Shown here piece by piece: positions 37,575-39,139 of a stretch of 43,628 nt of DNA; positions within the stretch are counted from its first letter, which is position 1, and the number at the start of each line of letters is the position of its first letter. The stretch comes from Dehalococcoidia bacterium (lineage in GTDB: Bacteria; Chloroflexota; Dehalococcoidia; Dehalococcoidales; JAUYDJ01): positions 924,644 through 968,271 of the forward strand of contig CP070693.1 of NCBI GenBank assembly GCA_020353235.1, in the 5' to 3' direction. Position numbers and translations under genes: made by a program. Below the pieces are notes generated by a model. The model worked only from the letters and a program-made list of their open reading frames with translations, searched no databases and was not told where the DNA came from.

Positions 37575-37629
37575 TATTTAAAAGTAATATTTTTTCGGTC
37601 TTTGGGGAATATAATTACGTAATAGAGTA

Positions 37630-37658
37630 TTGACGCAATTGCGCAATTGCGATAATAT
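37630..37658 (+). promoter_or_regulatory. parA promoter carrying an 18-bp palindromic operator / candidate parS
   Basis: TTGACG (37630-37635) and TAATAT (37653-37658) are 17 bases apart. The spacer and the end of the -35 box hold CGCAATTGCGCAATTGCG (37634-37651), a perfect palindrome made of two overlapping CGCAATTGCG units. A protein bound here would block RNA polymerase. In plasmid type Ib partition systems, the small ribbon-helix-helix ParB binds repeats upstream of parA that serve as both operator and centromere, so this is a good candidate for both. Confidence 0.7.
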
Positions 37659-37677
37659 ATTACCAAAGAGCTTTACT

Positions 37678-38466
37678 ATGCCGGTATTGTGCGTTGCCAA
37701 CCAGAAGGGCGGGGTGGGGAAGACCACCACTGCGGTGGCTCTGGCCGAAGGGTTGAGTGAGTATGGCAAGCGGGTGCTACTTATTGACTGGGACCCCCAG
37801 GCTTGCCTCACCATTACCGTCGGCATTAATCCCGATAATCTCAAAAGCACCATTTATGATGTTCTGGCCGGCACCATCCAGAATGAGGGCAGCCCATCGC
37901 TGAAAGAAGTTATCCTTCCCACTGACAACCCTGATATTAATATTGTCCCGTCTAATATTGAGCTCTCGCAGGCGCAGCTAGACCTGGTGGGGGTAGCCGG
38001 ACGGGAGCTGATATTGAGAAAGATGATTCAGCCGGTGCGCGGCGAATACGATTTTATACTGATTGACTGCCTGCCCAGCCTGGGCCTTATGACCATAAAT
38101 GCCCTATCGGCGGCCGATAAGGTAATCATACCCTTGCAGTCAGACTTCCTGGCGATGAAGGGACTGATGCGGTTACTGAGCACTATTATCCGGGTACAGG
38201 AAAGGATTAACCCGGGGCTGGATATATCGGGCATATTATTTACCATGACCAGCCCCCGTACCCTGCACTGCCAGGAGGTTATGGCGGTTACGCGGCGGGC
38301 TTTCGGTGACCGGATAAGAATATTTAAGGCCATAATTCCGAGCAGTGTTCGCTTCAAGGAAGCCCCGGCCGCCGGGAAATCAATCTTAAGCTATGCTCCC
38401 AGTCATGACGGAGCTCAGGCATACCGATTACTGACTGAAGAGGTGATGGAAAATGAAAAGAGTTAG
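37678..38466 (+). CDS. parA: ParA/Soj-type partition ATPase, small form
   Basis: The protein is 262 residues from ATG 37678. The deviant Walker A motif KGGVGKTT is at residues 10-17. LLIDWDPQACLTITVG (A') and YDFILIDCLPSLGLMTINAL (Walker B region) are typical. No N-terminal helix-turn-helix is present, so it is of the small (type Ib or chromosomal Soj-like) form. A longer frame from TTG 37630 would translate the promoter and is rejected. It overlaps the downstream ribbon-helix-helix-like gene by 14 bases. No oriC, dnaA or spo0J-type parB is nearby, so this is probably not the main chromosomal ParABS. Confidence 0.9.
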   Translation: MPVLCVANQKGGVGKTTTAVALAEGLSEYGKRVLLIDWDPQACLTITVGINPDNLKSTIYDVLAGTIQNEGSPSLKEVILPTDNPDINIVPSNIELSQAQLDLVGVAGRELILRKMIQPVRGEYDFILIDCLPSLGLMTINALSAADKVIIPLQSDFLAMKGLMRLLSTIIRVQERINPGLDISGILFTMTSPRTLHCQEVMAVTRRAFGDRIRIFKAIIPSSVRFKEAPAAGKSILSYAPSHDGAQAYRLLTEEVMENEKS

Positions 38467-38788
38467 TATAACCGAGGAACTGGCCTATGGAGCGGCCCTG
38501 GACCGCCTCACCGGCGCGGATAAGCCATCATTAAAAACAACCCGAAAAGCACCACCGGAACCAGCCGGGGCTCATCGCATCAAGCTATCGGTGTTTCTAA
38601 ACCAGGACGAGGATGCTTATCTTGAGAAATTGGGTTCGGTAGCCAAGTTCAGCGGCGGTAAGAAGATCAGCAAGACCAAACTCATTGAAGCCATGGTGCG
38701 GGCATTTGGCACCACCGGGCTGGATGTGCGGGGGGTAAAGACCGAAGAGGAGCTTTACCGGCGAATAACGGCGCAATTGCGTAAATGA
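38453..38788 (+). CDS. Small ParB-like / ribbon-helix-helix partner of ParA
   Basis: The 111-residue protein has a flexible basic N-terminal region of about 40 residues. A candidate DNA-binding unit follows: IKLSVFLNQDEDAYLEKLG (strand and first helix) and KKISKTKLIEAMVRAFGTTGLD (second helix), as in ribbon-helix-helix folds. Overlap with parA and a palindromic operator at the parA promoter support a centromere-binding and autoregulatory role. The assignment rests on context and secondary-structure pattern, not on a recognised family. The start has AAGAGGTG upstream. Confidence 0.7.
   Translation: MKRVSITEELAYGAALDRLTGADKPSLKTTRKAPPEPAGAHRIKLSVFLNQDEDAYLEKLGSVAKFSGGKKISKTKLIEAMVRAFGTTGLDVRGVKTEEELYRRITAQLRK
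38772..38781. repeat. Third CGCAATTGCG site, at the 3' end of the ParB-like gene
   Basis: CGCAATTGCG recurs exactly once more at the end of the cassette, within the last codons of the ParB-like gene. It could be a second binding site bracketing the operon, or coincidence, since it also encodes AQLR. Confidence 0.45.
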
Positions 38789-39139
38789 GTAACTGACTAT
38801 GAAGGGTCATCTCCTTCAACTGGGTAAAATAGCCCCTCACACTCTTAGTATCAAGCTCAGCCTTCATGTGCAGTAGTCCTGAGAGCGCCTGAAATTGATT
38901 TCTAGCCCCTTTACTGCTTCTAACCGTGGTTTTCTATAGATAACTATTAACCAGCCTGTATTTGGCTTAAAACGCGGTTAAGGCATTGGCGGTAAAGGGC
39001 TATTTTCTATTATATATATACGGGTTGACTTGGCTTATGGTCCTGTGGTATCCTCTTAAAGTTTCAACCATTTAAACTAAGGAGGTGTCGTTAAAATAGA
39101 ATAGATCAGGCGTGAAAAATCTGAGAGGAGAATAATTTT
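38789..39139. promoter_or_regulatory. Intergenic region with promoter for the binding-lipoprotein gene
   Basis: This 351-base gap contains TTGACT (39025-39030) and TATCCT (39049-39054) with an 18-base spacer, pointing to the lipoprotein gene. A perfect AAGGAGGT (39079-39086) lies about 60 bases before the gene but opens no real frame. A short (TA)n tract lies at 39009-39020. On the minus strand a frame between about 38940 and 38790 reads QFQALSGLLHMKAELDTKSV; it runs on antisense into the ParB-like gene, so I do not call it a gene. Confidence 0.5.

Follow-up and report, generated by a model that had tools for sequence, protein, structure and literature searches.

The parA locus examined here very probably constitutes a chromosomal partition system, parA-parB'-parS', that is resident in a clade of Dehalococcoidales and that, judging from its sequence, comprises an undescribed centromere-binding protein and a new parS. 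We also consider it likely, with somewhat less confidence, that the bacterial chromosome is segregated by this Soj-type ParA together with a centromere-binding protein whose family is new and distinct from ParB, acting on its own parS of 8-bp iterons, that the pair replaces the canonical ParB, which is missing from much of Dehalococcoidales, and that it works like the archaeal SegAB.

The window, that is, the whole stretch of DNA analysed, is 43,628 nucleotides long (G000:C1:924644-968271). Its source genome, G000, is a single contig of 1,121,908 bases, 95% complete, whose relatives by sequence are Dehalococcoidales/Dehalococcoidia MAGs. The comparison set consisted of 156 genomes of the order Dehalococcoidales, mostly MAGs. 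The sequence was read directly for about half of G000 and for 31% of a second genome, G287; whole-genome counts come from pattern searches. Features of the locus are listed in Table 1. A small partner gene overlapping parA, as given in the preliminary description, is seen directly in the sequence, and the overlap amounts to 14 nt. The start of ParA, which had been placed at the TTG at 37630, was moved: that TTG lies inside the promoter, and alignment with relatives leads to the ATG at 37678. The neighbours of the locus are housekeeping genes that differ from clade to clade.

Table 1. Features of the parA-partner locus (window positions)
Feature	Position	Strand	Basis
parA promoter: TTGACG (37630-37635), 17-bp spacer, TAATAT (37653-37658)	37630..37658	+	sequence; hexamers conserved in relatives
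18-bp perfect palindrome CGCAATTGCGCAATTGCG, operator and proposed parS	37634..37651	.	conserved in 33/33 distinct parA promoters
Degenerate upstream iteron(s) TACGTAATAGAGTA	37616..37629	+	promoter alignment
ParA, 262 aa, Soj-type	37678..38466	+	Pfam AAA_31 (E=7e-60); Soj structures; motif conservation
Partner, 111 aa, proposed centromere-binding protein	38453..38788	+	family alignments; 39/156 genomes of the order
Second site CGCAATTGCGTAAATGAG, within the final partner codons (Ala-Gln-Leu-Arg) and continuing over the stop	38772..38789	.	rare synonymous codons kept in relatives

Direct reading confirmed that a palindrome fills the -35/-10 spacer of the parA promoter. It is made of two 8-bp CGCAATTG iterons plus CG, and it overlaps the final two bases of the -35 hexamer. 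At the position of the upstream iterons, relatives carry rCGCAAnnGAGyA in 8-bp phase with the palindrome, and the promoter consensus across relatives is rCGCAAnnGAGyATTGACGCAnTTrCGCAATTrCGcTATAAT; the sequence flanking this block is poorly conserved in the same alignment. TTGACG/TAGACG and TATAAT-like hexamers were kept in every promoter read, and the site was found at the same place in all the 33 distinct promoters. This anatomy supports a predicted second role of the promoter site as an operator.

Within the window alone, four matches to the site at no more than one mismatch were observed versus 1.9 expected, which is weak evidence. In the whole source genome, CGCAATTGCG occurs four times and its reversed control once. 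Three of the four occurrences are at the parA locus (two in the promoter and one at the 3' end of the partner gene), and the other is located 154 kb from there, within a radical-SAM gene. The exact 18-mer CGYANTTRCGYAANTRCG was present in 33 of the 39 genomes having the partner and in one of the 117 genomes lacking it, the reversed control being 0 throughout (Fisher p ~1e-26, an upper bound on the strength of the association, as the genomes are related). The sole partner-negative genome with the 18-mer, G329, is 64% complete and belongs to the same genus as the carriers. When one mismatch was allowed, 95 sites versus 5 control matches were obtained from 16 partner-positive genomes, and none from four related partner-negative genomes. 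The preliminary description had raised the possibility that CGCAATTGCG is merely spread at background frequency and is not conserved at the promoter. Both parts of this were checked and neither held, given the 33/33 promoters and the near-zero controls, and the background-frequency explanation was rejected. Conservation in the promoters and co-occurrence with the partner therefore make the observation decisive despite the weak count in the window.

Alignment of 106 unique sites gave the symmetric motif CGCAATTGCGCAATTGCG, with its information concentrated in the central 18 bp and with weaker conserved flanks corresponding to 8-bp iterons in phase. Using rough ORF calls we mapped 73 sites: 17 fall within genes, 11 lie in the gaps of convergent gene pairs, and the remainder are in tandem or divergent gaps. 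Many of the sites, by their in-gene or convergent-gap positions, therefore cannot be promoters.

A third CGCAATTGCG, which had been reported at the 3' end of the cassette, was found at 38772-38781, within the partner gene. Relatives encode the C-terminal Ala-Gln-Leu-Arg as GCG CAA TTR CGn. GCG is retained in 24/24, CAA in 20/24 and TTR in 21/24 sequences, compared to expectations of ∼20%, 21% and 9%, respectively, and binomial p-values for this retention overstate its strength, as the sequences are related. CAA, TTG and TTA are otherwise seldom used in these genes. Conservation also continues beyond the stop codon (AGAGTAAnTGCGCAATTGCGnnAATGAGTAA in many relatives). This pattern of codon choice indicates that selection at the 3' site acts on the DNA, beyond the protein alone.

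The distribution of the sites over the chromosomes is confined. In G287 (2.3 Mb, single contig), all five sites found genome-wide at one mismatch are located at 262–267 kb, beside parA, and a profile scan added a sixth at 268 kb and none elsewhere within the 705 kb sampled. These six sites (G287:C1:260001-270000, L216) fall within 6 kb around parA at a fairly regular spacing of ∼1.0–1.5 kb, and one of them belongs to a 28-bp perfect palindrome, ACTCATCTGCGCAATTGCGCAGATGAGT. The G287 cluster sits at parA, and no dnaA was detected within the surrounding 240 kb. On contig C53 of G335, 13 sites are located in a 37-kb block (76.5–113.7 kb), and the rest of the contig, 88 kb, has none; parA is at 75.7 kb and dnaA at 105.8 kb on this contig. 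Contigs that had been chosen solely for carrying the site proved to hold dnaA, namely G335:C53, G334:C151, G333:C31, G332:C96, G329:C86, G297:C172, G315:C67 and G325:C301. In families f9 and f95, nine contigs without parA carry the exact 18-mer, and each of them has dnaA or the conserved block around it, which consists of genes for a radical SAM protein (rSAM), gyrA, a TPR protein, lysC, apgM, mazG, fmt, dnaA and obg (identified by Pfam, with the TPR protein named from reading its sequence).

The source genome has three sites in all and none in the dnaA stretch; its only distal site is within the rSAM gene of the dnaA-gyrA block. In this genome rSAM and gyrA are located at 1.11–1.12 Mb and dnaA at 89 kb. 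The gyrA-rSAM part (G000:C1:1111803-1116858) and the lysC-dnaA-obg part (84126-91580), both outside the window, are contiguous in relatives. We infer that the split would correspond to one ∼94 kb inversion if the contig is circular. In family f106 (G350, G353, G358 and G359), exact sites were observed on five parA-free contigs that do not have the dnaA block (L230, L231, L232, L233 and L126). The location of the cluster therefore varies, and family f106 may have its centromere region in another place. As GC skew was uninformative and DnaA boxes were sparse, oriC was not placed, so the term origin-proximal refers here to dnaA-gyrA. Taken as a whole, the arrangement of the sites is the anatomy of a putative chromosomal centromere.

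The partner family was detected in 39 of the 156 genomes, as a single copy in each, and the search result was bimodal, with E-values of 1e-44 to 1e-62 or nothing. It was not seen outside the order among the sampled genomes of the class. The N-terminus of the partner carries a conserved motif, MKRxxITEELAYGxALDRLTG, in which K2, R3 and R18 are invariant in the family alignment; after it come a Pro-rich linker, which varies, and a C-terminal domain, which is conserved (family consensus IKLSVFLNREEDAYLESLASTAKFSGGKKLSKTKLIEAMVRAF). On inspection by eye, the C-terminal domain resembles a strand-helix-helix, and a ribbon-helix-helix of the beta-alpha-alpha type is likely, although the models and searches did not confirm it. 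AlphaFold models of the full-length protein (22 rows) and of the C-terminal domain (29 rows) were of low confidence (pLDDT 57 and 55, respectively) and had no strand, and two Foldseek searches with these low-confidence models gave no usable match. Profile searches against Pfam, NCBIfam and PDB returned nothing significant, and hhalign comparisons of the family with Arc, CopG, ParG and omega scored no better than shuffled controls. The only hint came from phrog_1725, annotated as 'DNA binding protein', which 24 of the 29 family members matched weakly, the best E-value being 0.002. Relatives of the partner were absent from 72,556 plasmids (except for one chance match of 34% coverage), from 50,697 phage records and from viral contigs.

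ParA is of the Soj type and has a deviant Walker A, and the motifs KGGVGKTTT, DWDxQ and DxxPSL show no variation among 37 sequences of its family. Its nearest solved relatives are the ParA family protein 8ray (2e-56), 4pfs, and the Soj proteins of Thermus (1wcv) and Helicobacter (6iub), the latter two with E-values of 1e-47 to 1e-48. Other solved ParAs matched less well (delta, 1e-16; SegA, 7dut, 2e-14; ParF, 1e-8). The protein is also 40–45% identical to ParAs located at canonical ParB loci in other orders of the class. The preliminary description had called this ParA plasmid-type, of type Ib; its nearest structures are instead chromosomal Soj proteins (1e-47 to 1e-56), not ParF or delta. In the ParA tree the sequences form one clade relative to the outgroup, but the branching departs from some of the families; a degree of horizontal transfer may thus have occurred, and vertical inheritance is not proven.

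The nearest ParAs among plasmids were examined for a similar partner. Those of Cohnella and Subdoligranulum are paired with an HTH ParB. On plasmids of Methanosarcina (L249:1489-2609) and Pseudanabaena (L250:1189-2315), a Soj-like ParA adjoins or overlaps a hypothetical partner of 119–124 aa that has no Pfam match; these small partners are possibly other undescribed families of centromere-binding proteins.

No match to ParB_N (PF02195) or parB_part (TIGR00180) was found in the source genome, and canonical parS (TGTTNCACGTGNAACA) gave no match there with fewer than two mismatches, its count being 16 versus 35 in the reversed control. ParB was below the cut-off in 37 of the 39 partner-positive genomes, the exceptions being G313 and G359, which carry one each. 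TIGR00180 scored above the cut-off in only 12 of the 156 genomes of the order, whereas the other orders of the class often have a strong match to PF02195. Most partner-negative members of the order also have no convincing Spo0J/ParB.

In the mechanism that we propose, dimers of the partner would bind the 8-bp iteron sites via the C-terminal domain. Bound at the promoter, the partner would repress the parA operon, since the site covers the -35/-10 spacer, and the clustered sites with bound partner would assemble into a centromere. Nucleoid-bound ParA-ATP would then bind the N-terminus of the partner, the invariant basic residues of which (K2, R3 and R18) may stimulate ATP hydrolysis by ParA. 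The centromere would follow the receding ParA, and sister centromeres would thereby move apart.

Three other explanations were weighed against this partition reading. The locus could be an autoregulated operon with a small regulon, where the partner is a repressor, the sites mark its target promoters and ParA serves another cargo. The best-conserved site does lie between the -35 and -10 of the parA promoter, and roughly half of the mapped sites fall between tandem genes, where promoters could be located. However, the 17 of 73 sites within genes and the 11 between convergent genes do not fit target promoters, and the sites track a chromosomal region (parA and the dnaA block) rather than a function. 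The six sites packed into 6 kb in G287 at intervals of ∼1.0–1.5 kb, and the 3' site kept synonymously in coding DNA, argue in the same direction, and we regard a regulon as unlikely. It would be still less likely that the partner serves a protein cargo as an adaptor resembling McdB or PadC, with the palindromes being the target of some other, unlinked protein. Such a reading gains from the fact that the structure models did not confirm a DNA-binding fold for the partner, but the sites are present in the promoter and at the 3' end of the parA-partner operon itself, and their presence tracks the partner gene across the 156 genomes.

We judged similarly improbable a plasmid or integrative element that inserted into the chromosome and retained a type Ib partition cassette. 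The logic of an operator-centromere with a small partner resembles type Ib, and the ParA tree suggests some transfer between families. Against this stand the Soj-type ParA, the lack of any partner relative in the plasmid, phage and viral collections searched (apart from the one chance match), the single copy in each of 39 genomes amid housekeeping neighbours that vary by clade, and the spread of sites over the dnaA-gyrA block, which by itself already largely refutes the reading. Membership of plasmid type Ib was rejected on the type of ParA and the absence of plasmid relatives. Of the partition reading in the preliminary description, the pairing of ParA with a small partner, the double use of the site as operator and the logic of partition have thus survived, and the assignment to plasmid type Ib has not. 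Its 'domesticated or integrated module' is likewise at odds with a single-copy locus in a quarter of the order, with housekeeping neighbours and with sites around dnaA-gyrA in relatives; as ParA is of the chromosomal Soj type, neither 'plasmid-type' nor 'integrated module' is supported.

A chromosomal partition system of this kind would be an exception to the statement in a 2016 review that every bacterial chromosomal partition system uses a centromere-binding protein of the HTH class (PMC5002424). The ParA motor would have been kept, and a different small protein with different, clustered sites would have replaced the ParB gene along with its CTPase domain and parS. If so, marking a bacterial chromosome for segregation would not require the CTP-driven sliding and spreading of ParB. 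The locus would also provide a bacterial parallel to archaeal SegAB, and a tractable centromere protein of 111 aa with sites predictable from sequence. In full-text searches of open-access papers, no description of a system of this kind in Dehalococcoidales was encountered.

Compared to canonical ParABS (Soj/Spo0J/parS), the present system has the Soj-type ParA in common and, in relatives, several palindromic sites clustered around dnaA-gyrA and parA, although of a different motif. It differs in that the source genome has no ParB_N/CTPase or ParB HTH protein and no parS, and in that the proposed centromere-binding protein is only 111 aa and has no detectable relation to ParB. With the plasmid type Ib systems (ParF-ParG of TP228 and delta-omega of pSM19035; PMC5016525) it shares a predicted operator-centromere with short direct and inverted iterons, and a small partner whose N-terminus is basic and whose C-terminus is likely to be beta-alpha-alpha. 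Type Ib partners have an arginine finger in an unstructured N-terminus; in the present partner the invariant K2, R3 and R18 precede the Pro-rich linker and may include such a finger. In contrast to those systems, the ParA is a Soj-like protein of 262 aa and not ParF- or delta-like, the system is chromosomal with no plasmid relative of the partner, and the sites are scattered over tens of kilobases. The partner also has no similarity to ParG or omega that hhalign could detect.

In the archaeal SegAB of Sulfolobales, an overlapping operon has palindromic sites upstream, sites cluster around the locus and more are present on the chromosome; 83.7% of SegB sites are intragenic, and their motif is TCTAGA-S-TCTAGA (PMC12284271). 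The present system, on the other hand, is bacterial and its ParA is nearer to Soj (1e-47 to 1e-56) than to SegA (2e-14). No solved structure is detectably similar to its partner, its motif is CGCAATTGCGCAATTGCG, and most of its sites are intergenic by rough ORF calls. The likeness to SegAB lies in the arrangement: a ParA ATPase gene overlapping the gene of a small non-ParB partner, for which DNA binding is proposed here, palindromic sites in the promoter or upstream, a cluster of sites around the locus with further chromosomal sites, and neighbouring genes that vary between clades.
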